Positions 4,533 to 21,479 of a DNA stretch of 21,958 bases are shown here, one piece after another. The notes under the pieces were generated by a model, which ran no database searches, was not told the origin of the DNA, and worked only from the letters and a program-made list of their open reading frames with translations. Source of the stretch: a virus; the IMG/VR virus record IMGVR_UViG_3300043436_004432, positions 1 to 21,958 of that record. The stretch is one strand, 5' to 3'. Numbering within the stretch: position 1 is the first letter of the stretch; each line of letters begins with the position of its first letter. The position numbers and the translations under genes were made by a program.

Positions 4533-4745
4533 ATGAGCCAACGCCCCACTGCCCAAGACGCCTTCATCGCAAAGAAAGCTGCGATCGACGCGATGCTTGC
4601 TCGGCTTCAAGCGCTGAGCGACGCGCACTTCAACACCCATCCCGACGAGGTCCATTGGGGGCATGTCGGCAACCTTGATTATTACGCCGAGCTTCTGAAG
4701 CGCATCACCGACAGCGCCTTCACGGAAGGCGAGCACGCGGAGTAA
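4533..4745 (+). CDS. Small conserved phage protein of unknown function (70 aa)
   Basis: A 70-residue, His- and acid-rich, probably all-helical protein: an amphipathic helix (FIAKKAAIDAMLARLQALS), a turn containing NTHPDEVHWGHVGNL, and a second helix (YYAELLKRITDSAF). No membrane segment or catalytic motif is visible. I recall similar short proteins from Rhodobacteraceae prophages but know no function. It is encoded against the flanking operons and is followed five bases later by a second plus-strand gene whose Shine-Dalgarno (GGAG) overlaps this gene's last codons, so the two look co-translated. The upstream Shine-Dalgarno is modest (AGGA, rather far from the ATG). The opposite-strand frame over the same DNA reads like a shadow. 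Confidence 0.62.
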   Translation: MSQRPTAQDAFIAKKAAIDAMLARLQALSDAHFNTHPDEVHWGHVGNLDYYAELLKRITDSAFTEGEHAE

Positions 4746-4750
4746 AACCC

Positions 4751-4969
4751 ATGGAAACCACCAGCATTCGGCTCACCATCCGGAACCTGCCCGACCATTT
4801 TGACCGCACCCGCATTTCCGCCGTTCTCGACGAGATCGAACTGGCCCTGCTGGAGGAGCGCGAGATTCACTGCAGCACCTCAGCCGACAGTTTCACCATC
4901 ACGATTGTGGTGCCAACTCTCCGCCTGGTGGATGTGGCGACCTGCTTGAAAGGCATTGGCCTGATCTAA
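4751..4969 (+). CDS. Small protein of unknown function (72 aa)
   Basis: A 72-residue protein with alternating strand/helix pattern: TSIRLTIRNLP, then a helix DRTRISAVLDEIELALLEER, then SFTITIVVPTLRLVDVATCLKGIGLI, suggesting a small beta-alpha-beta ferredoxin-like fold. No known motif is recognised. The ATG at 4751 is preceded by GGAG eight bases upstream, at the end of the preceding gene, which supports coupled translation. Its TAA (4967-4969) overlaps the TAG of the convergent DUF7220 gene (4966-4968), leaving no room for a terminator between the two opposing transcripts. The call as a real gene rests on the Shine-Dalgarno, the pairing with the previous gene and the protein-like composition. 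Confidence 0.58.
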   Translation: METTSIRLTIRNLPDHFDRTRISAVLDEIELALLEEREIHCSTSADSFTITIVVPTLRLVDVATCLKGIGLI

Positions 4970-5193
4970 CCTCGCGCACCCGCCACTCGGATGGCCTCGA
5001 AGAGCCGACGCAGCAAGAACGATCTTGCCAGGCTTACGATTGTGAAGACCGCGCCCATTGCAAGGTTTTGACCCAAGGTCGTCTGCAGTCCAAAGATCGG
5101 AAAGATCAGGATCTGCGTCACGACGGCGACGCCATAACCGACGATCACGTTGGCGACAGACTCGACCAACGACATAAGGCGGGACTGCTTCAT
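4966..5193 (-). CDS. DUF7220-family small membrane protein
   Basis: A 75-residue protein with two predicted transmembrane helices: about residues 10-34 (VESVANVIVGYGVAVVTQIL, continuing through IFPIFGL) and about 42-62 (QNLAMGAVFTIVSLARSFLL), with a basic N-terminus (MKQSRLM) and a basic C-terminal helix (RRLFEAIR). This pattern matches the DUF7220 proteins I know from Rhodobacteraceae prophages; function unknown. ATG 5193 overlaps the methyltransferase TGA as ATGA, and no separate Shine-Dalgarno is evident, so it is probably translated by coupling. A holin-like role might be guessed from size and topology, but nothing lytic lies next to it and I do not assert it. Confidence 0.8.
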   Translation of the reverse strand: MKQSRLMSLVESVANVIVGYGVAVVTQILIFPIFGLQTTLGQNLAMGAVFTIVSLARSFLLRRLFEAIRVAGARG

Positions 5194-6422
5194 GCGGCCG
5201 CACGTTCCGCCTTCAGCGCGTCGAAGGTGGTGTCGCTGCCCTCAAGCGCCGCCTGTTTGCCGGTGAACTTCTGCCAACGCGCAACTGCCACATCGACGTA
5301 AGCCGGGTTCAGTTCGATGCCGTAGCAGACCCGTCCAGTCGTCTCGGCTGCGATCAGCGTCGTTCCTGATCCCATGAAGGGCTCATAGACCGCCTGCCCG
5401 GGGCTCGAGTTGTTCAGGATCGGCCGACGCATGCATTCGACGGGCTTCTGCGTCCCGTGCACGGTCTTTTCGTCCTGATCCTTGTTGGCAATCTGCCAAA
5501 GCGTGGTCTGCTTACGATCACCGGCCCAGTGCCCCTTGCCGGACTTGCGCACGGCATACCACGCGGGCTCGTGCTGCCAGTGATAATCCCCGCGGCTCAG
5601 AACCAGTCGATCCTTGGCCCAGATGATCTGGGACCGGATGGTGAAGCCTGCGACTTCGAGACTTTCCGCGACCGTCGCCGCGTGCAGCGCCCCGTGCCAG
5701 ACATAGGCGACATCGCCGGGGAACAGAGCCCAGGCTTCGCGCCAGTCAGCGCGGTCATCATTCAGCACCTTGCCGGTGCGTTTTGTCTTGGCCGCGCCAG
5801 CCTGGTTACGCCAGCTCGGATCGTATTCCACACCGTACGGTGGATCGCTGACAAGCAATAGCGGCTTTACGCCGTTCAGCACTCTCTCGACATCCGTGGC
5901 GACCGTGCTGTCGCCACAGAGCAGCCGGTGGTTGCCGAGGATCCAGAGATCGCCCGGGCGGCTGACCGGATCTGCAGGAGCTTCCGGAACATCGTCCTCG
6001 CCCTCCTGATGGCCGGCGCCGTCCTTAAGGCTGGACATCAGCGCGTTCAACTCGTCGTCTGTGAAGCCCGTCAGCCCGAGATCGAAATCAGCCTCCAGCA
6101 GGTCGGCCAGTTCGAGGTTCAGCAGGTCCTTGTCCCATTCGGCATTCTCGCTGGAGCGGTTATCCATGATCCGGAAGGCGCGCGCTTGGCTGACGGTCAG
6201 CCCCTTGGCGACATGCACCGGCGCGGTCTTGAATCCGAGCTTGCGGGCCGCTTCCAGCCGCGTGTGCCCGGCGAGAACCACCATCGCCTCGTCCACGACA
6301 ATGGGTTGCCGCCAGCCGAATTCCTGGATCGAGGCCGCGACCGTCGCGATCGCCTGCTCGTTGCGCCGCGGGTTGCGCGCATAGGGAATGATCTGCTCGA
6401 GCGGCAGGTCGACGACGTCCAT
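5190..6422 (-). CDS. ParB-domain/DNA methyltransferase fusion (N4/N6, beta class)
   Basis: A 410-residue two-domain protein. Residues 1-95 are a ParB/sulfiredoxin-like domain (IIPYARNPRR at 11-20, AGHTRLEAARKLG at 51-63, MDNRSSE at 86-92). Residues 155-385 are an amino-methyltransferase: DPPY at 193-196 (catalytic motif) and FMGSGT at 349-354 (SAM binding), with DPPY preceding FxGxG as in beta-class enzymes; TQKPVE (324-329) is the usual motif before the SAM site. It would methylate adenine N6 or cytosine N4 in phage or host DNA. Such fusions are common in phages and usually lack a restriction partner, where they can protect DNA from host enzymes or affect gene control. The ATG at 6422 has AAGGA seven bases upstream. 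Target sequence cannot be read from the protein. Confidence 0.93.
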   Translation of the reverse strand: MDVVDLPLEQIIPYARNPRRNEQAIATVAASIQEFGWRQPIVVDEAMVVLAGHTRLEAARKLGFKTAPVHVAKGLTVSQARAFRIMDNRSSENAEWDKDLLNLELADLLEADFDLGLTGFTDDELNALMSSLKDGAGHQEGEDDVPEAPADPVSRPGDLWILGNHRLLCGDSTVATDVERVLNGVKPLLLVSDPPYGVEYDPSWRNQAGAAKTKRTGKVLNDDRADWREAWALFPGDVAYVWHGALHAATVAESLEVAGFTIRSQIIWAKDRLVLSRGDYHWQHEPAWYAVRKSGKGHWAGDRKQTTLWQIANKDQDEKTVHGTQKPVECMRRPILNNSSPGQAVYEPFMGSGTTLIAAETTGRVCYGIELNPAYVDVAVARWQKFTGKQAALEGSDTTFDALKAERAAA

Positions 6423-6789
6423 GGTGATGTCCTTGGAATGCCCGCGAAGCGAAATGGGGTCTGATCCCCGTTTCGGTTCAGGCGTTTTGGGTTAGGCCGT
6501 TAGGCCTTTGTTTTCTTAGGCTTTGGCGGAAACCGAACCGCAGGTCCGCGCTAGCGAAACGAAACGGGTATTTTCAGGGGTGTCACTAGGAAACCCTCGG
6601 GCCTCGCCCCCCCGAATACGGTTACAAACAGGAGGGACCCGTTCAATTTCAATGGGTTGCGAGGCGAAACATTTTGAACGGAGACGGTTTTTTCGGAAAC
6701 CTGGTCACCGAGTTCAGCTTTGTTTTGCCTCTTGCAGTGCCACTGATCCTCATCGTCTCATATACGCGTACACACGAGAGAACTGCAAA
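6423..6789. promoter_or_regulatory. Divergent intergenic region between methyltransferase and VRR-NUC genes, with leader hairpin
   Basis: A non-coding stretch of 367 bases that must hold the promoters for the leftward methyltransferase operon and the rightward nuclease gene. Directly visible is a 10-bp stem (CGAAATGGGG, loop TCTGAT, CCCCGTTTCG; one G-T wobble) at 6450-6475, about 30 bases upstream of the methyltransferase start and thus in its probable leader. There are also three TTAGGC repeats around 6493-6525 and several short CGAAAC/GTTTCG motifs. A plus-strand frame is open through the right part but its translation is not protein-like. I could not assign convincing -35/-10 pairs. Confidence 0.45.
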
Positions 6790-7422
6790 ATGGCTCAAGC
6801 GCCCACCTTCGACACCGAAATCAACAAAGCGCCGGCGCTCCGCATCAGCCATGTCGTGCGCGGCCGCTTAAACGATGGCAGCAGGGTCCAATACCTCGTG
6901 GATCCCGAAGGCAAAGGTGATGAGCGAGATATTCCAGAGGACGTCGTCCTGCGGCGTTGGCGACGCAGGACAATGGTTGGCCACATATTCCATGGTTGCA
7001 GGTTGGGACCAAACACCTGGCGCGCCATTGGCTACGCGTTCGGTTCGGAAGCAGAACAGATATGCAGTCTGTCAGTCGAGCAGATCGCAGCAGGTCGACA
7101 AGACCTGAGCCTAGACAACGACAGCCATCACTTCCGGCTGCCGGACGCATCAACTGTGGCGTGCCTCTTTCAGGCCTTGGGGCCTGGTCAACTTGAAAAA
7201 ATCCTCCGTCGTCATCTCTCGCCCGAGCGGGTCGAGAGATTTGGCACACCGGACCTGTTCTTGTTCGCCAAGAAGCGTCAGGAAGCGAAGGTGTCGTTTT
7301 TCCGCTTGGTTGAGGTAAAGAAGCCTGGCGAGCATATCAGTCGTGACCAACACGAAGAAATTGCGTTCCTGCGCTCAATCGGCGTTCCCGCTCGGGTCCT
7401 TCGGCTCATCGAGCGCAACTAA
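6790..7422 (+). CDS. VRR-NUC-type PD-(D/E)XK nuclease
   Basis: A 210-residue protein whose C-terminal third matches the VRR-NUC nuclease fold: FGTPDLFLF (151-159) gives Pro154-Asp155, LVEVKKPG (173-180) gives the E-x-K pair Glu175/Lys177, and SRDQHEEIAFLRSIGVPARV (184-203) carries Gln187 and the final helix-strand. The first 130 residues resemble nothing I recognise. The frame is open back to 6523, but those 89 codons are unlike protein; ATG 6790, with GAGAG upstream, is the better start. VRR-NUC proteins cut branched or flapped DNA (eukaryotic FAN1, many phage helicase partners). It is a lone plus-strand gene between two minus-strand units, which is a moron-like arrangement, divergent from the methyltransferase. 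Confidence 0.82.
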   Translation: MAQAPTFDTEINKAPALRISHVVRGRLNDGSRVQYLVDPEGKGDERDIPEDVVLRRWRRRTMVGHIFHGCRLGPNTWRAIGYAFGSEAEQICSLSVEQIAAGRQDLSLDNDSHHFRLPDASTVACLFQALGPGQLEKILRRHLSPERVERFGTPDLFLFAKKRQEAKVSFFRLVEVKKPGEHISRDQHEEIAFLRSIGVPARVLRLIERN

Positions 7423-7914: not shown

Positions 7915-8107
7915 GGCGCACCTCCCTCACCGCGGGAAGCTTGCCATAGAGCTTGTCCCCCAGTTGACGGACGAGTTCGCGTTCGGGCCAGGTCAGTCGT
8001 GGGTCATCAAGGGACACAGCCAGCATGCGCTGCTCGCGCCAGCTGTCCCGTTTGACCTGGTCGGGATCGCGGCGCTGGCCGCCGTAGCCTTTGGGGTAGA
8101 GCCTCAT
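7907..8107 (-). CDS. Small conserved protein of unknown function (66 aa)
   Basis: A 66-residue basic protein beginning MRLYPKGYGGQRRDPD, with a helical core (QVKRDSWREQRMLAVSL) and the segment LTWPERELVRQLGDKLYGK. The start ATG 8107 overlaps the TGA of the RuvC-like gene (ATGA), and its own TGA lies eight bases inside the DUF6362 gene; this tight nesting supports it as a real gene. The same frame is open further upstream to 8305, but that part is an Arg/His-rich shadow of the RuvC-like gene. No motif is recognised. It may partner one of its neighbours. Confidence 0.7.
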   Translation of the reverse strand: MRLYPKGYGGQRRDPDQVKRDSWREQRMLAVSLDDPRLTWPERELVRQLGDKLYGKLPAVREVRHG

Positions 8108-8592
8108 GCTGCACCTCCCAGGCTCTCTAGCGCCCAGTGCAGGATGGCGATGGCGTCGGCTTCGTTGTCGTCCGCTGGGCTGTAACCGCGCGCGCGCGCG
8201 GCGGCGATCATGGCCTGCTTGGGTGCATTGCCGTGGCCCGTGGCGTGACGTTTGATGGTGCCGACCGGCACTCCCTCGTAAGGAATGCCGCGCAGTTCGC
8301 CCCACGAGGTCAGCGAGGCCATCAGACCGCCATAGACATGGGCAGCGTCAGTGCCCGCATGCCGCCTGACTTCTTCATACCAGATCGCTGAGATGGGTCC
8401 GGACAGCCGGTCCAACTCCGTCAGCCAGCTGGTGAAGCGCAGATAGCGCATACCGCCGCCATCGTAGCGGCCAGGGCGGAAGCTGGCCGTTCCGGTTGTG
8501 ATCAGACCGTCATGGCCGCGGATCGCCCAGCCTGTGGTCGTGCCGAGATCAAGCGCCAGCAAACAGCGCGGGGTGTTTTCGGGTTGGGTCAT
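8104..8592 (-). CDS. RuvC-like Holliday junction resolvase (RNase H fold)
   Basis: A 162-residue RuvC-type nuclease. The first strand carries LLALDLGTTTGWAI (11-24) with catalytic Asp15; the second acidic residue is in IWYEEVRRH (Glu73 or Glu74); the C-terminal acidic pair is in ADDNEADAIAIL (140-151), with Asp146 in the usual last position. Length is close to RuvC (about 170). Phage relatives resolve four-way and other branched junctions made during replication and recombination, clearing DNA before packaging. The ATG at 8592 has an excellent Shine-Dalgarno (GAGGAGGT). It is the first gene downstream of the repeat-rich region 8593-8982, so its promoter should lie there. Confidence 0.87.
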   Translation of the reverse strand: MTQPENTPRCLLALDLGTTTGWAIRGHDGLITTGTASFRPGRYDGGGMRYLRFTSWLTELDRLSGPISAIWYEEVRRHAGTDAAHVYGGLMASLTSWGELRGIPYEGVPVGTIKRHATGHGNAPKQAMIAAARARGYSPADDNEADAIAILHWALESLGGAA

Positions 8593-8714
8593 GGAGACCT
8601 CCTCTTCGCTTGGACGAGCGTGGCGGGAGGGCTGGCCGGTGAAGGCTGCGGTCTCGCCAGGCCCCGAAGGGTGGTCTGGTCATGTCAGGCGCGGGGCGAG
8701 CGGGCCGCCCGGCA

Positions 8715-8977
8715 GATCCTTCAAAACCTTCAAAGGGGTCTCTTGAAAGATTTTCGCCCCTAAGTGGTTGTACTGTATATATAATATATAATCTTTCAAT
8801 TATTCAATATTTCAATAGGTACCTCTCTCCTAATTTTTAACCGAGCGCGTACGCGTACAGGGATAAAAGGTCCTCTTGAAAGATTGAAAGATTTGAAGGA
8901 TCCCGTTTTACCCTTTCATTGCAGGGATTTGACCCCCCTTAATGCTTCAAGGACAGCTTCAGCGGGTTTGAAGGATC
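8715..8977. repeat. Iteron-like array, consensus TTGAARGATY, seven copies in two forms
   Basis: Form A, TTGAAAGATT, occurs at 8743-8752 (+), 8790-8799 (as AATCTTTCAA, -), 8876-8885 (+) and 8884-8893 (+, overlapping the previous copy by two bases). Form B, TTTGAAGGATC, occurs at 8715-8725 (as GATCCTTCAAA, -), 8892-8902 (+) and 8967-8977 (+). Three copies run head to tail from 8876 to 8902 with a spacing of about eight bases. Two longer matches, GGTC(C)TCTTGAAAGATT, sit at 8737-8752 and 8869-8885. Such clustering is far above chance in this GC-rich DNA. Confidence 0.75.
8778..8807 (-). promoter_or_regulatory. Possible leftward promoter for the RuvC-like operon
   Basis: On the minus strand TTGAAT (8807-8802) is separated by 18 bases from TATATA (8783-8778). 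The whole segment is A/T-rich, so several other pairings are possible, and the transcript would have a leader of roughly 180 bases before the RuvC-like ATG at 8592. It overlaps one inverted TTGAAAGATT repeat. Confidence 0.3.
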
Positions 8978-8982
8978 TCCAG

Positions 8983-11262
8983 TCACCCATCCCACCTCGC
9001 CATCCTGTAGACCATGGCCTGCTTGGTGGAAGACCCGCGCATACCTGTGGTGATGTCGCCACTCTCGATCAGGGTGAGCAGGATTTCATCGCGATCCCGT
9101 GATTTTAGCCACTGCGAGGCCCGAGTGATCTCGGATTTGGTGATACCCTTAGCCCCTGACGCCCGGATGATCTCCTTCAGCCGCTTCAGGTGCGCCTCGG
9201 TCTCGGTGTCCGCGACATGGCGCTCTACCGCTTCCATCGTACGCTGCGCGTAGTGCCGCACGAAACTGATGGCCCACTCTGCCGCCGTGATCTCGATCTC
9301 GGGCCGTGCTGGATCACGCCCCACCGCCACTATGAGCGCAAGCTTCAGGGCGTTTTCTCCGATGCGGGCGAGGATTGCCGTGAAGGCCGTTCCAGCGGCG
9401 GCCCGCAATTCCTCCGTCAACTCGATGCTGAGCTGGCGGAACCGGGCCCGGGCCTCCTCAGTCATCGGCACGATCATCGGGTTCACGGCAGTGTTCTGAT
9501 CGGCGGTCTTGCCGGTCAGATTGCCCTTCTTGGTCCCACCGCCCGCGGCGATCAGCTGCAGCCCCTGGATCAGCGCGGGCGGGGCTTGCCGGATCCCGAC
9601 GGCAATGTTCTCGTCGGGGTAGTCCTCGTCGCTGGGCAGGATCAGGAAACGAGCCAGCGAGCCATCAACGACGTTCGCCCCCTGCAGCGCGCCCCAGAAG
9701 TGCAAGGGCGTCGTGGTGCCATAGACGCAGAGGCAGGGCTGGTTGATGTCGCGCCGTTCGTTCGTGCCGTCCCGATTGGCGTATTCTGCCCCGAGGAAGA
9801 TCCCACCGGCCGAGGTATAGAGCTCGGTCATGTTATCGAGGATTTCGGTGATATGGCGCGGGCTGCGCTTGCGGTCTGCGGCAGCTGACAGGAACATGCC
9901 GAACTCGTCGATCTGGAACAGGATCGCGGGCTGGCGGTGCAGCGCGGTCAAAAGGCCCGCGCCGGAAGCGATTTTGTTGCCGCCGAGATGATGGGCCAGC
10001 CCCGCCTCGAAGAAGGTCTCGTTGATGATTTCTCGGGCGTGGTTCTTGCCCGAACCGCTGTCCGCGATTCCGACGACATAGAGGTTCGAGCGCAGGTTGC
10101 TCTCGGTCCGATAATTCCGCCCCATCAGCGCGCCGATTGCACAGAGGCTGGCGCCGAACGACAGGAGCGGCTGCGGGCGCCGGGCAGTGGACAGCATGTA
10201 ATCGGTCAGATCGCCGACCAACCCGTCAGGTATCGCCAGCGAGAACGGCGGTGCGGCTGGGGCCGGAGACGCCGCAGTTGTTGAGACATCCAACCGTGCA
10301 AGCAGACCCGCCGCAGGATGATCCGCGTCATCGGGCAGACTGCCATCAAGGCGGAGGTCGGGATCAGGCTGCCAGCCGCGCTCCATGGCGAGATGGTAGA
10401 TCGTGCCAGCCCCGATCCGATCGGGCTTGAAGCTGGCCCAAGCGTTAAGCGTAGTGGCCGGCACATCCTTGGCCGCCTGCGCAGACCAGCCGCCAAAGAG
10501 ATCGGCTCCGGCCTCGCCAAGCGCCCCTTTCAGCGCCATGCCAACCCGCATCCAGCTGTCGTAGTCGAGTTCAGCGTTGGGCAGCCAAGCGAGCGCTGCC
10601 TCGATCGCGGGCAAGGTTCCGATCTGGCTGTGGATGCGCTCGACTTCACCCGCAGGTGCAACGGCAGAGAGCCCACGCTGGCGCAACGCTTCCGGGAGCA
10701 GCGCATAGGCCTCGTCAAGAAACGCAAGCGCAGCTTCGGCCGTGATTTCGGGCAAGTCGGTGATGTCGATATCCGCCAGACCCTCCTCGGGCCAGGCGTA
10801 GGGCGCGCCAGTGTCAGGGTGGATGGCATAGGCCACGAACTGCTGCCCGAGGCAGAGCACCTCCAGCGGGTGGCGCTTGATGCCACGGAACGGCTCGTTG
10901 GTGCGATAGACCAGCATCCGCTTCGGGGCCCGGCCAATGCGCAGGGCGGGCGTGTCACCGAGACGCTCCCTGGCGAGCCGCTCGATCTGCAGCGACAGTT
11001 CAGCGTCCTCGGCGATGTCGATATCCACCGCCGCCACGGCGCCGCCGACAATCCCAATGCCGCAATCCGGCCAGCTGGCCCATGTGGCCACCTCGACCTC
11101 CGTAGTACCGCGCTCGGCATGGCGGTTCCATTCCGGGTAGTCCGCCCAAGCCCCGCGCTGGAAGCGGCCGGGCTTCTTCGTGCCCGGGCCGATGGGCAGG
11201 ATGGCATAGCCATTGGTGACGAGCCGCGCGCCGAAGCGCGCGATGAAGGATGTGTCAGTCAT
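8983..11262 (-). CDS. Primase-polymerase/helicase replication protein
   Basis: A 759-residue multidomain replication protein. Residues 1-190 are a bifunctional primase/polymerase N-terminal domain (archaeo-eukaryotic type): AVAAVDIDIAED (76-86) supplies metal-binding Asp80 and Asp82, and YAIHPDTG (145-152) holds the expected His148. Residues about 208-300 match PriCT-2 (IEAALAWLPNAELDYDSWMR through DRIGAGTIYHLAMERG). The C-terminal half is a P-loop ATPase with Walker A GIADSGSGKN (398-407) and Walker B ILFQIDEFG (447-455), probably the helicase or a DnaB-like motor. It would prime and unwind at the phage origin. The gene ends against the repeat array at 8715-8977, a probable target. ATG 11262 overlaps the DUF6511 stop as TGATG. 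Last gene of the replication operon. Confidence 0.88.
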   Translation of the reverse strand: MTDTSFIARFGARLVTNGYAILPIGPGTKKPGRFQRGAWADYPEWNRHAERGTTEVEVATWASWPDCGIGIVGGAVAAVDIDIAEDAELSLQIERLARERLGDTPALRIGRAPKRMLVYRTNEPFRGIKRHPLEVLCLGQQFVAYAIHPDTGAPYAWPEEGLADIDITDLPEITAEAALAFLDEAYALLPEALRQRGLSAVAPAGEVERIHSQIGTLPAIEAALAWLPNAELDYDSWMRVGMALKGALGEAGADLFGGWSAQAAKDVPATTLNAWASFKPDRIGAGTIYHLAMERGWQPDPDLRLDGSLPDDADHPAAGLLARLDVSTTAASPAPAAPPFSLAIPDGLVGDLTDYMLSTARRPQPLLSFGASLCAIGALMGRNYRTESNLRSNLYVVGIADSGSGKNHAREIINETFFEAGLAHHLGGNKIASGAGLLTALHRQPAILFQIDEFGMFLSAAADRKRSPRHITEILDNMTELYTSAGGIFLGAEYANRDGTNERRDINQPCLCVYGTTTPLHFWGALQGANVVDGSLARFLILPSDEDYPDENIAVGIRQAPPALIQGLQLIAAGGGTKKGNLTGKTADQNTAVNPMIVPMTEEARARFRQLSIELTEELRAAAGTAFTAILARIGENALKLALIVAVGRDPARPEIEITAAEWAISFVRHYAQRTMEAVERHVADTETEAHLKRLKEIIRASGAKGITKSEITRASQWLKSRDRDEILLTLIESGDITTGMRGSSTKQAMVYRMARWDG

Positions 11263-15115: not shown

Positions 15116-15862
15116 TCATTCAGATTGAGGCATGGCCGCCATGAACTCGGCCCAGCTGAGGGGCAGCGTGTCCGGCAGCCCGTAACGGTTCTTGGCGAGG
15201 AAGGCGGGGCGCTCCTCGGTGTGCATGACGCGCGCACCAGACCCGAGCGCCCGGGTGACCTTCTTGTTGAAGCCGACATCAGACTTCGCGACCGAGATCT
15301 GATAGTTGGCGAAGAGCACCACATCAGAATGCTCCTGCAAGAGCGCCGAGGCGCGGGCCTGCAGCTTGATCACATAGCGGTCGTAAGGCTCGTGCTCGGG
15401 GCTGTCGAAGCGCTTGATGTCGGTATGGGCGATCTGGATGACCGCCATGCCTTTCTGGTCCCGGAGCGCATTCAGCTTGTCGAGATACTCCCGCCAGACA
15501 GTCAGCGCCTCGGCATAGCCTTTCCCGAAGCCGGGGGTTTCAATGGACGCCCAGCCGTTGCGGTGGCAGGCTTCAGCCCAGATCAGCGGCTCCAGCCAGT
15601 CGACGCTGTCGATGACCACCGTGCCGAAGTCGTGGCCCTCGGTCAGCAGAGCGTCCAGGGCCCCGGCCACGTCCGCATAGCTCGTCGCCAGCGGAAAATG
15701 TGGCACCTGCAGTTTTCCGAGCCCGTCCTCGGTCATGATGAACACCGGCCGGTCGGCATCAGAGGCAAAAGTGGACTTGCCGACACCTGCCACACCGTGG
15801 ATCAGGATGCGCGGCGGTGTCAGCGCCGAGGTCATGCACAGGGATGCGAGAGAGATAGCCAT
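15116..15862 (-). CDS. RecA-like AAA ATPase (AAA_24 type, possible Sak4-like recombinase)
   Basis: A 248-residue P-loop protein. Walker A is GVAGVGKS (23-30) and Walker B TVVIDSVD (81-88); IQIAHTDIKRFDSPEHEPYD (142-161) and the basic segment KKVTRALGSGARVMHTEERP are typical of the phage AAA_24 group, which overlaps with Sak4-type single-strand annealing proteins. It lacks the longer RecA C-terminal domain. It would bind or anneal single-stranded DNA together with the DUF669 protein, 21 bases downstream. ATG 15862 overlaps the preceding stop as TGATG and has AGGGGA upstream. The ATPase call is firm; the recombinase role is inference from family and context. Confidence 0.85.
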   Translation of the reverse strand: MAISLASLCMTSALTPPRILIHGVAGVGKSTFASDADRPVFIMTEDGLGKLQVPHFPLATSYADVAGALDALLTEGHDFGTVVIDSVDWLEPLIWAEACHRNGWASIETPGFGKGYAEALTVWREYLDKLNALRDQKGMAVIQIAHTDIKRFDSPEHEPYDRYVIKLQARASALLQEHSDVVLFANYQISVAKSDVGFNKKVTRALGSGARVMHTEERPAFLAKNRYGLPDTLPLSWAEFMAAMPQSE

Positions 15863-17773: not shown

Positions 17774-17804
17774 ATTCCCCCCGGATTCGCGCGTGCGGTT
17801 GTTC

Positions 17805-17851
17805 TCCTATCGTTCTAGTCTCTTGACGATCCCAGTGCAATCCTATCTTAT
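17805..17851. promoter_or_regulatory. Overlapping divergent promoters and possible operators between repressor and early gene
   Basis: Rightward: TTGACG (17823-17828), 17-base spacer, TCTTAT (17846-17851), giving a leader of about 25 bases to the repressor ATG. Leftward: TTGCAC (17840-17835), 17-base spacer, TAGAAC (17817-17812), with about 30 bases to ATG 17773. The two core promoters interlock, so they cannot both be occupied. TCCTATC is present twice, at 17805-17811 (leftward start point) and 17841-17847 (rightward -10), 36 bases apart, as candidate operator half-sites. Confidence 0.5.
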
Positions 17852-17882
17852 CCAAACTAATCCACAGCCCCTTGGGGATAAA

Positions 17883-18560
17883 ATGACCGAACACCACTCA
17901 CTGGCCGACCGCCTGCAGGCCCGCGCGCATCAGCTTGGCTTGAGCCCCGCCCACGTCGCAGAGATGGCGGGCGTGAACCGATCCTTCGTGTATGACATCC
18001 TCCGCGGCCGCTCGATCCGGCCTGGCCTCGACAGGCTAGCTGAGGTGGCGCGTGTCCTGAAAGTAGATCTCGACTGGTTGATCCATGGCATTGGCGAAGT
18101 TGAAGGCCCCCTGCCCTTCCTCGAAAACTCTGAAGAGGCGTTCGTGGCAATTGCGCATGCGGGCGTACGGCCCTCCATGGGGGGCGGTGCGATTGTTTTG
18201 GAAGACTATGAGGAAGCTGACCGCGCCTATCATTTCCGCAAGTCTTGGATCAAGAATGGGCTAAAGGCCTCCCCTTCCCAGCTGCGGATCATGAAGGTTG
18301 AGGGTGACAGCATGGAGCCCACCTTGATGAACGGCGATACCGTTCTGGTCGACATGACCCGCAAATCGCCCAATCCACCTGGAATTTTTGTGCTCGACGA
18401 TGGTATCGGGTTGGTTGCCAAGCGGTTGCAACATGTGCCTAACAGCGACCCGCCTGCGGTGCGGGTCATCTCCGACAACAAGCACTATCCAGAGTATGAG
18501 CGCAGCGCAGAAGAAATCGTGATCGTTGGACGTATTCGTTGGTTTGCAAGAGAGATCTGA
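17883..18560 (+). CDS. CI/LexA-like repressor with S24 peptidase domain
   Basis: A 225-residue repressor. The N-terminal XRE-type HTH spans about 8-66 (ADRLQARAHQLGLSPAHVAE, MAGVNRSFVYDILRG). The C-terminal S24 domain has KVEGDSMEPTLMNGDTVLVD (138-157) with nucleophile Ser143, and GLVAKRLQ (176-183) with general base Lys180. Self-cleavage stimulated by RecA would inactivate it and induce the prophage. An Ala-Gly pair (93-94) lies in the linker, but the position aligned with the usual cleavage motif reads SMGGGA (98-103). The frame is open from 17793, but ATG 17883 with GGGGA just upstream is the better start. It is divergent from the 227-aa early gene and followed one base later by the next plus-strand gene. 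Confidence 0.92.
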   Translation: MTEHHSLADRLQARAHQLGLSPAHVAEMAGVNRSFVYDILRGRSIRPGLDRLAEVARVLKVDLDWLIHGIGEVEGPLPFLENSEEAFVAIAHAGVRPSMGGGAIVLEDYEEADRAYHFRKSWIKNGLKASPSQLRIMKVEGDSMEPTLMNGDTVLVDMTRKSPNPPGIFVLDDGIGLVAKRLQHVPNSDPPAVRVISDNKHYPEYERSAEEIVIVGRIRWFAREI

Positions 18561-19670: not shown

Positions 19671-20154
19671 GATAATTGATCGAGGGTTTAGCTCTGATCG
19701 GGCAAGAGATCGGACCGTTCTCTCTAGTCTCGCCGCTCTGAAGGAGATGTCGGTCAAGGAGTTGAAAGCAGAGTGGGAAAAACTCATCGGGACGTCAGCT
19801 CCGAACAATAGCCGAGCCTTCCTCGAATTCCGGATCGCCTATCGCATTCAGGAACTGGCCTATGGCGGCCCTGATCGTGAAACACGGCGGATGCTGGACC
19901 TTCTGGCGGACGAGGTTGAGGGGCATAGCAAGCGCAAACACCAGATCATCGATCCCCGCAATCCTGTTACTGGCACACGGCTTATCCGCGAGTGGGAGGG
20001 TATCGAGCACACGGTCACAGTCCTGAAAGACAGCTTTGACTGGCAGGGCCGAAAGTTCAAGTCGCTCTCCGCCGTCGCCCGCGAAATCAGCGGAACCCGC
20101 TGGAATGGCTATCGCTTCTTTGGTCTGCGCGAACGCAAGCGGGAGGATGTATGA
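19654..20154 (+). CDS. DUF2924-family protein
   Basis: A 166-residue basic protein of the DUF2924 family. Typical blocks are LAALKEMSVKELKAEWEKLI (27-46), SRAFLEFRIAYRIQELAYGG, GTRLIREWEGIEHTVTVLKD and the C-terminal FDWQGRKFKSLSAVAREISG, TRWNGYRFFGL. The C-terminal part resembles a small DNA-binding module of the kind found in homing endonucleases and phage proteins (SLSAVAREISGTRWNG). These proteins nearly always sit just upstream of a large serine recombinase, as here, and may help it bind or choose direction; that role is inferred. Its TGA overlaps the recombinase ATG. Confidence 0.9.
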   Translation: MRKTNKIIDRGFSSDRARDRTVLSSLAALKEMSVKELKAEWEKLIGTSAPNNSRAFLEFRIAYRIQELAYGGPDRETRRMLDLLADEVEGHSKRKHQIIDPRNPVTGTRLIREWEGIEHTVTVLKDSFDWQGRKFKSLSAVAREISGTRWNGYRFFGLRERKREDV

Positions 20155-21479
20155 TGGACAATCCCAACCGCCCTGCGCGACGCCTGCGCTGCGCCATCTA
20201 CACCCGAAAATCGAGCGAGGAAGGGCTCGAGCAGGAGTTCAACAGCCTGCACGCCCAGCGGGAAGCCTGCGAGGCCTATATCGCCAGCCAGAAGTCTGAA
20301 GGCTGGGCACTGGTTCGCGATCAATATGACGATGGCGGCATCTCAGGTGGCACGTTGGAGCGCCCAGGGCTGAAGCAGTTGCTGGCCGACATTGAAGACG
20401 GGTTGGTGGATGTGGTCGTCGTCTACAAGATAGACCGTCTCTCGCGCTCTCTGATGGACTTTTCTAAGCTGGTGGAGGTCTTTGATCGCAACGGGGTTAC
20501 CTTCGTCTCGGTCACGCAGAGCTTCAATACAACAACATCCATGGGCCGATTGACCCTGAATATCCTGCTCAGTTTTGCACAATTCGAACGTGAGGTCACT
20601 GCCGAGCGCATTCGCGACAAGGTGAAGGCTTCGCGCATGAAAGGTATGTGGATGGGAGGATATGTGCCCCTTGGCTATGATGTGCGGGACCGCAAGCTGG
20701 TTGTAAACGAACAGGACGCTGGCTCAGTGCGGCGGATCTTTGATCGCTTTGTGGAGGTTGGCTCCGCCACGGTGCTGGCGCGGGAACTGCGCCGTGAGGG
20801 GTTCCGCAGCAAGCAGGGCACGCTGATCGACAAGGGCTATCTGTACCGGCTTTTGAACAATCGCGTCTATCGTGGCGAGGCTCTGCACAAGGGTAAGGCT
20901 TATCCTGGAGAGCACGATGCCATCATTGACGCAGACCGCTGGCACCGCGTGCATGCCATCCTTCAGGAAAGCCCCCGCAAACGGGCGAACAACAGCCGCG
21001 CGCAAACGCCAGCGCTCTTGAAGGGGCTGATCTTCGGCGAAAATGGCGCGTCCATGACGCCGACCAGCACGAAGAAGGGGGCAAGGCTCTACCGCTACTA
21101 TGTGTCAATGGACGTGATCCGGAACCGCGAGACCGGCGAGGAAACCGCGCCGATGCGGCTGGCCGCCGGAATGGTCGAGGACGCAGTCGTGACCGAAGTT
21201 CGGCGCATCCTGCAAACGCCAGAGGTGGTCACGCAGGTGTTGGCCGCCTTGAAGCGCGACGGCGGTGGAGCATCCGAAGCTGATGCCATCGCGGCCTTGC
21301 AAGAGTTCAAGGGTGTTTGGGCGCAACTTTTCCCAGCGGAACAGGCCCGCATCATCCAGTTGTTGGTGCGGCGTGTCACGGTCACCACCGCCGGGCTTGA
21401 GGTCGATATTCGCAGAGAAGGAATTGCGGGCGTCATACGTGAGATGGTCGCGCCGCGCCGGATGGAGGCCGCAGAATGA
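20151..21479 (+). CDS. Large serine recombinase (probable phage integrase)
   Basis: A 442-residue serine recombinase. The catalytic domain begins AIYTRKSSEEG with nucleophile Ser21, followed by FNSLHAQREACEAYI, DDGGISGGTLERPGL and VVYKIDRLSRS (resolvase signatures), with the long helix ending near KVKASRMKG. The recombinase domain follows (VPLGYDV to YRLLNNRVYRGEALHKGKAY). The region LKGLIFGENGASMTPTSTKK to RYYVSMDV matches the zinc-ribbon domain, but its usual Cys pairs are absent. A short C-terminal part is helical. It would carry out site-specific integration and, with a directionality factor, excision. Two ATGs (20151, 20154) are possible; GGGAGG lies upstream. It is at the expected end of the element, after the immunity genes. 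Confidence 0.92.
   Translation: MMDNPNRPARRLRCAIYTRKSSEEGLEQEFNSLHAQREACEAYIASQKSEGWALVRDQYDDGGISGGTLERPGLKQLLADIEDGLVDVVVVYKIDRLSRSLMDFSKLVEVFDRNGVTFVSVTQSFNTTTSMGRLTLNILLSFAQFEREVTAERIRDKVKASRMKGMWMGGYVPLGYDVRDRKLVVNEQDAGSVRRIFDRFVEVGSATVLARELRREGFRSKQGTLIDKGYLYRLLNNRVYRGEALHKGKAYPGEHDAIIDADRWHRVHAILQESPRKRANNSRAQTPALLKGLIFGENGASMTPTSTKKGARLYRYYVSMDVIRNRETGEETAPMRLAAGMVEDAVVTEVRRILQTPEVVTQVLAALKRDGGGASEADAIAALQEFKGVWAQLFPAEQARIIQLLVRRVTVTTAGLEVDIRREGIAGVIREMVAPRRMEAAE

Follow-up and report, generated by a model that had tools for sequence, protein, structure and literature searches.

Iteron-like repeats of a candidate phage replication origin covary with the winged helix of the adjacent primase-helicase

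Our comparative analysis of a 21,958-nucleotide stretch of viral DNA (the window) showed that an array of short repeats directly downstream of a primase-helicase gene changes its wording in concert with the C-terminal winged helix of the encoded protein, which is the behavior expected of iterons and their initiator. The array (positions 8715–8977) very probably represents the replication origin of the phage, with the primase-helicase encoded beside it as the putative initiator. Judged from sequence comparisons, we have good confidence in the origin function of the array and high confidence that the winged helix recognizes the repeats. The original prediction, which had named the array as a candidate origin, thus gains support from a layout conserved among relatives and from the joint change of repeats and winged helix. 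Several features typical of iteron origins are found together here: short repeats clustered above chance, an adjacent A/T-rich region of conserved position and, as indicated by the covariation, a nearby and apparently cognate initiator gene whose specificity is tied to the repeats.

Organization of the repeat array

The window encodes a lambda-type portal and a gpA-type terminase (virus record; Pfam), and the presence of an S24/HTH repressor-like gene (17793–18560, plus strand) and a serine recombinase (20151–21479, plus strand) makes the phage look temperate. The replication genes on either side of the array all lie on the minus strand. Rereading of the sequence recovered the seven repeat copies described previously on both strands of 8715–8977, i.e., four of TTGAAAGATT (8743(+), 8790–8799(−), 8876(+) and 8884(+)) and three of TTTGAAGGATC (8892–8902(+), 8967–8977(+) and 8715–8725(−)). 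In a scan of the full 21,958 bases, the core TTGAARGAT was found at seven sites, all within 8716–8976 and none elsewhere, while a first-order Markov model predicts 0.24 sites per window and 0.012 for the region 8593–9000. Markov sequences with the array's own composition contained a mean of 0.017 sites and a maximum of two (n = 5000).

The array starts just past the 3′ end of the primase-helicase gene, as noted before, with an outer site TTTGAAGGATC (8967..8977, +) about 7 nt after the stop codon; other classes of relatives carry other words at the same address. It is followed by the tandem triple TTGAAAGA-TTGAAAGA-TTTGAAGGATC (8876..8902, +), whose copies begin at 8876, 8884 and 8892. Their period of 8–9 bp, with a lag-8 autocorrelation of 0.67, agrees with the spacing of about eight bases given earlier, and the triple is kept in all classes. 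An A/T-rich core flanked by repeats, also part of the original prediction, was found at ∼8768–8819 in DNA of otherwise ∼63% G+C. This candidate DNA-unwinding element reaches a G+C minimum of ∼0.16 per 50 bases about 165 nt past the primase stop, and nearly every relative has its minimum at a comparable distance. Overlooked so far was a second triple within the core, TTGAAATA-TTGAATAA-TTGAAAGATT (8790..8816, −), which is inverted and degenerate, has an 8-bp period (lag-8 autocorrelation 0.70) and changes with the repeat class. The two triples thus form a long inverted repeat, with 18-nt arms and a loop of 68 nt in the window, beginning ∼92 nt after the primase stop. The spacer between them contains a G+C-rich alternating element, GAGCGCGTACGCGTAC (8843..8858), identified from the sequence; a CG-rich block is kept there in classes A, B, C and B2, and class H has a stem of a C-run and a G-run instead. 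Beyond the core lie the outer sites TTGAAAGATT (8743..8752, +), identified in the window scan and the class-by-address table, and TTTGAAGGATC (8715–8725), the latter with an adjoining half-repeat TTTGAAGG to position 8733 (together 8715..8733, −).

An Rfam scan of 8000–9300 gave a single match, RF01323 (CRISPR-DR10), at 17.9 bits vs. a gathering score of 39; being below threshold, it was rejected as chance. A search of cultured phages for DNA similar to the window found none. Cumulative GC skew of the window has its minimum at 9565 without a clean sign change at the array, and the skew averaged over relatives was noisy and uninformative as an origin marker.

Repeat classes in related phages

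Two collection scans yielded 160 prophage or phage loci with a primase identity of 60–100%. Lack of the repeats beside the same primase gene had been named at the outset as evidence against an origin; instead, the layout is kept 3′ of the Prim-Pol/DUF3987 gene in nearly all of these loci, down to 60% identity. The conserved order comprises outer sites, the tandem triple (8–9-bp period), a spacer of 56–80 nt, the inverted triple in the A/T core and further outer sites. In relatives of the window's class, the sites are located at about +7, +82, +91, +99, +184 (inverted), +232 and +259 (inverted) relative to the primase stop.

Other classes carry different words at identical addresses, and this holds even for some relatives with more than 90% primase identity. 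We distinguish at least seven classes, in each of which every site has changed together, e.g., to ACTTCYTTCAA (class B), AATTCTTCAA (L148), AATTCCTCA (L147), ATYCGTCA (L146), TTMCGTCA (L142 group) or AATTTTTGNA (L144), and when seven motifs are tabulated by class, the result is nearly diagonal. Such a concerted change at separate sites requires one sequence-specific binder. In class C (37 loci), the layout is degenerate, with only degenerate CTTCA boxes, an A/T core without iterons and no stem. A tandem duplication of CAGAGACCCTCGCGCGCGTGGGTGGGGATG (two copies) was observed within the array of a B2-class locus (L157:8282–8600), where it lengthens the spacer between the triples. In another locus (L065, near 8280), the primase C-terminus diverges from the family past GSSTK and the sites are a mixture of A-, B- and C-like words, possibly reflecting a broken or recombinant cassette.

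Whether the array persists when its neighbors vary can be judged only in distant phages, since neighboring genes hardly vary in close relatives. In the distant phages AP-16-3 and RHph_TM3_3_14B, the next gene is VRR-NUC or hypothetical, and an A/T core surrounded by TTGGAATT-type repeats is still found 3′ of the primase gene; with different neighbors, the array stays beside the primase gene. Cultured Sinorhizobium and Rhizobium phages with proteins ∼27% identical have TTGGAATT-type repeats and an A/T core in the same place. No array was seen after the primase genes of Synechococcus Ssp-JY40, Vibrio H188, Roseobacter CRP-902, Pseudoalteromonas H40/1 and a Sulfitobacter plasmid. The Loktanella phage pCB2051-A carries a 41-nt inverted repeat (93% complementary, 64-nt spacer; L163:3443–3588) directly after its primase gene, and an A/T-rich stretch follows it.

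Covariation of repeats and primase-helicase winged helix

The candidate initiator is a 759-aa protein (8983..11262, minus strand) with a Prim-Pol, PriCT-2, DUF3987 ATPase and winged-helix architecture. It matches Pfam PF09250 (E = 7.5e-12), PF08707 and PF13148 and a PHROG annotated as DNA primase. The AF2 model is confident in the N- and C-terminal domains and poor in the ATPase region, and its top Foldseek match as a whole is the Prim-Pol domain of pRN1 ORF904 (1rni, E = 9.5e-5). Pfam assigns the ATPase region to DUF3987; Foldseek matches of this low-confidence part of the model to MCM/ORC were not significant. A winged-helix fold is predicted for residues 687–754 (codons at 9001..9204, −), with helices at 687–701, 709–715 and 721–733 and strands at 737–743 and 748–754. 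Folded alone, this domain has a pLDDT of 87 and a Z score of ∼10–11 vs. winged-helix domains (VIA), and its sequence profile matched winged-helix domains in the PDB weakly (best E = 0.016). P4 alpha was absent among the fold matches listed, an absence that carries no weight.

Mutual information between primase residues and array class, calculated for 114 loci with at least 79% primase identity, is concentrated at residues 743–759. Columns 743–746 and 748 separate class B perfectly from classes A and C, and no other protein tested, i.e., encoded within ∼6–8 kb of the array, has such columns: the best of them reaches a balanced accuracy of 0.88, compared to 1.0 for the wing. In the AF2 model, residues 743–748 (codons at 9019..9036, −) form the wing tip. 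Residue 746 is Thr in 87/87 loci with an AT-type outer half of the repeat, as in the window (codon 9025–9027, −), and Gly in 60/60 with an ACTT-type one. These 147 classified loci include proteins that are only 60–63% identical; the unassigned groups K and L (with L113) are outside this count. At position 725 in the recognition helix, six of the 147 loci, those whose repeats have a CGTC inner half, carry Thr, Gln or Arg, and all the others carry Asp or Asn.

When the array class was traced along a tree of the primase body, it had changed 40 times, including 18 changes between B and not-B, and 16 of 16 independent pairs showed a joint switch of wing and array (p = 3e-5). One locus, L113, departs from the wing rule, combining a B-type wing with a C-like array. 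The extent of an exchange is seen by comparing L144 and L148, whose DNA is ∼95–100% identical up to ∼300 nt before the primase stop, drops to ∼40–70% across the winged helix and the array and returns to ∼90–97% from about +447, indicating that exactly the winged helix and the array were exchanged. Wing codons and array are only ∼100 bp apart, and such linkage could by itself preserve their association; the concerted change of all sites, however, is left unexplained by linkage alone.

The original prediction had offered the DUF6362 protein as a binder besides the primase-helicase. DUF6362 does not track the repeat class, and neither do RuvC, the ParB-domain methyltransferase, the DEAD helicase and other proteins tested. 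The ORF starting at 15862 shows several associated columns and was likewise rejected, its best value being 0.88 vs. 1.0 for the wing. Since the wing tip of the primase is the sole segment among the tested genes that tracks the class, the primase rather than DUF6362 is the candidate binder. The same result bears on the suggestion that the array is another kind of DNA site (partition/centromere-like, recombination or packaging). Short direct and inverted repeats occur at such sites too, and a ParB-domain methyltransferase (Pfam) is encoded at 5190–6422; given that this protein does not follow the repeat class, that the terminase genes are far from the array and that the only covarying protein segment found is part of a replication protein, we regard this explanation as highly improbable.

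Alternatively, the array could be an operator through which a regulator, perhaps the winged helix of the primase itself, controls RuvC-DUF6362 transcription from a promoter in the A/T core. The core contains two minus-strand pairs of promoter-like hexamers (8815–8788 and 8799–8772) where 0.2 are expected, and 120 of 121 close relatives have the RuvC-like gene (8104–8592, −, in the window) as the next gene after the array, with an almost invariant leader. In AP-16-3 and RHph_TM3_3_14B, however, the array stays with the primase gene and not with RuvC, and neither DUF6362 nor the other tested genes follow the class. Moreover, a single promoter would not need seven sites spanning 260 bp and arranged as inverted triples with a 56–80-nt spacer. 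A purely regulatory function in place of an origin is thus unlikely, while an operator or promoter role on top of the origin role is possible.

On its far side, the exchanged block is bounded by the leader of the RuvC-like gene (8593..8700, −), as identity between classes returns to 0.95–0.98 at +280 to +400. Over ∼110 nt, this leader is 95–98% identical between array classes and better conserved than flanking coding DNA, is partly retained even at 62% primase identity and has no Rfam match above threshold. Conceivably, it acts as a regulatory RNA leader, as a promoter or as an anchor for the recombination by which cassettes are exchanged. Farther along, a VRR-NUC nuclease frame (6523–7422, +) lies on the strand opposite to its neighbors in a stretch of lower G+C content (0.54–0.58). 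It has tblastn matches in only 28 of 114 relatives and is possibly a late insertion.

Based on these comparisons, we propose that the C-terminal winged helix of the primase-helicase would bind directly to the 8–10-bp repeats. Within each repeat, the outer half would be read by wing residues 743–748, with T746 specifying AT and G746 specifying ACTT, and the inner half probably by residues of the recognition helix such as 725. Copies bound at the two inverted triples would assemble two initiator sets in opposite orientation, which may allow bidirectional loading. The A/T core with its weak repeats would melt, the DUF3987 ATPase would enter the melted core and unwind it, and replication would start there with first primers made by the Prim-Pol domain. 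Because the reader and its sites are adjacent, they would be exchanged as one cassette, changing replication specificity.

Relation to known replicons and implications

The closest parallels are the Sulfolobus plasmids pRN1, pRN2 and pHEN7 and the Bordetella phages BPP-1/BIP-1, in which a single protein likewise unites Prim-Pol, helicase and a C-terminal winged helix and a variable element lies between conserved flanks. Their ∼100-bp element, essential in their case, likewise lies 3′ of the gene and has inverted arms around a ∼57–80-nt loop. In pRN1, a 100-bp element that comprises a 21-nt stem and a 58-nt loop and lies 3′ of the Prim-Pol/helicase/winged-helix gene is needed for replication; the same stem-loop element was proposed by the authors for BIP-1 (PMC4234260). 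In that 2014 study, gel shifts and footprints with ORF904 failed, and the recognized sequence motifs were described as “not yet identified” (PMC4234260). The window has the PF09250 Prim-Pol, the C-terminal winged helix and the inverted arms of pRN1-type replicons, and class C relatives lack the arms. The pRN1 protein has an SF3 helicase domain, and the corresponding part of the phage protein is assigned to DUF3987. The pRN1 stem-loop was described without iterons, whereas phages of this family have additional outer sites, a distinct A/T core and a wing that covaries with the repeats.

By analogy to pRN1, the protein might need the base pairing of the arms, i.e., a stem-loop or cruciform, rather than the wording of the repeats. 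Most classes other than C have 18-nt arms with 13–18 complementary bases and a 52–80-nt loop, the single-strand DNA fold of the array has a z score of −3.85 so that the inverted arms could form a cruciform, and for one stem mutation in pRN1, tolerance depended on a partner mutation that restored symmetry (PMC4234260). However, 15 of the 31 class A loci have a C/T or A/G difference on one side only, which breaks the pairing at one position and retains the repeat consensus, and the outer sites, which are outside the stem, bear the same class word. Based on these two observations, we take the repeats as the recognized element; class C, moreover, has no such stem. Recognition of a stem-loop in place of the repeats is quite improbable, and a structural role of the arms besides repeat recognition is possible.

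Reexamination of the arms 3′ of the replication genes showed tandem 9-bp repeats, with different words each, in BPP-1 (L170:2608–2711; 0 of 20,000 shuffles), pHEN7 (L175, ∼4690–4780; p = 0.00015), pRN1 (L173, ∼5080–5175; p = 0.015) and, weakly, pRN2 (start of L174; p = 0.09). No clear tandem arms were found in pDL10 and pSSVx, and the gene end of pSSVx was not located in this search.

Other systems are more distant. Phage P4 also combines origin repeats with a primase-helicase, alpha, whose C-terminal winged helix binds the ori repeats as cited in PMC4234260. Alpha, however, has a bacterial TOPRIM primase, which the PF09250 Prim-Pol protein of our phage lacks; order and wording of the repeats differ, and P4 alpha was not recovered as a sequence relative. 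PLE elements of Vibrio cholerae provide a functional parallel, with no homology claimed: the DNA-binding domain of the initiator RepA and the iteron origin are exchanged together with the remaining protein conserved, and their cognate pairing has been proven experimentally (PMC8263062). In PLE, the DNA-binding RepA_N domain is N-terminal, the iterons are ∼30 bp, there is no primase domain, and initiator gene and origin region form two separate covarying stretches. In PrimQH and PolpTN2, an archaeo-eukaryotic primase is fused to an ATPase (DUF3987 or another) and to a winged helix at the C-terminus; for PolpTN2, origin recognition by this winged helix was proposed as speculation from fold similarity (PMC5862659). 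They share this order of primase, ATPase and winged helix with our protein, which differs in having its Prim-Pol in Pfam PF09250.

In the literature searched, whose coverage is incomplete, we found no report of covariation between wing and repeats. The array and its covarying partner appear to constitute a pRN1/BPP-1-like replicon in which the covariation itself identifies the initiator candidate. More tentatively, and as a suggestion we hold only loosely, replicons from archaeal plasmids to tailed phages may share inverted sets of 8–9-bp iterons 3′ of the initiator gene, with a few wing residues setting specificity and with wing and array being swappable. If so, the pRN1-type arms, until now read as a bare stem-loop, would be iteron sets, and phages would swap a wing-and-array cassette, perhaps evading competitors or origin-directed nucleases.

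For the question of how pRN1-type Prim-Pol/helicase initiators find their origins, this phage family represents a natural experiment with many exchanges. With a concrete motif, residues 746 and 725 as candidate determinants of specificity, and cultured hosts, it reduces the question to a direct test of binding and plasmid replication. The covariation may also allow for a simple typing of prophage replication compatibility in Rhodobacterales and relatives.
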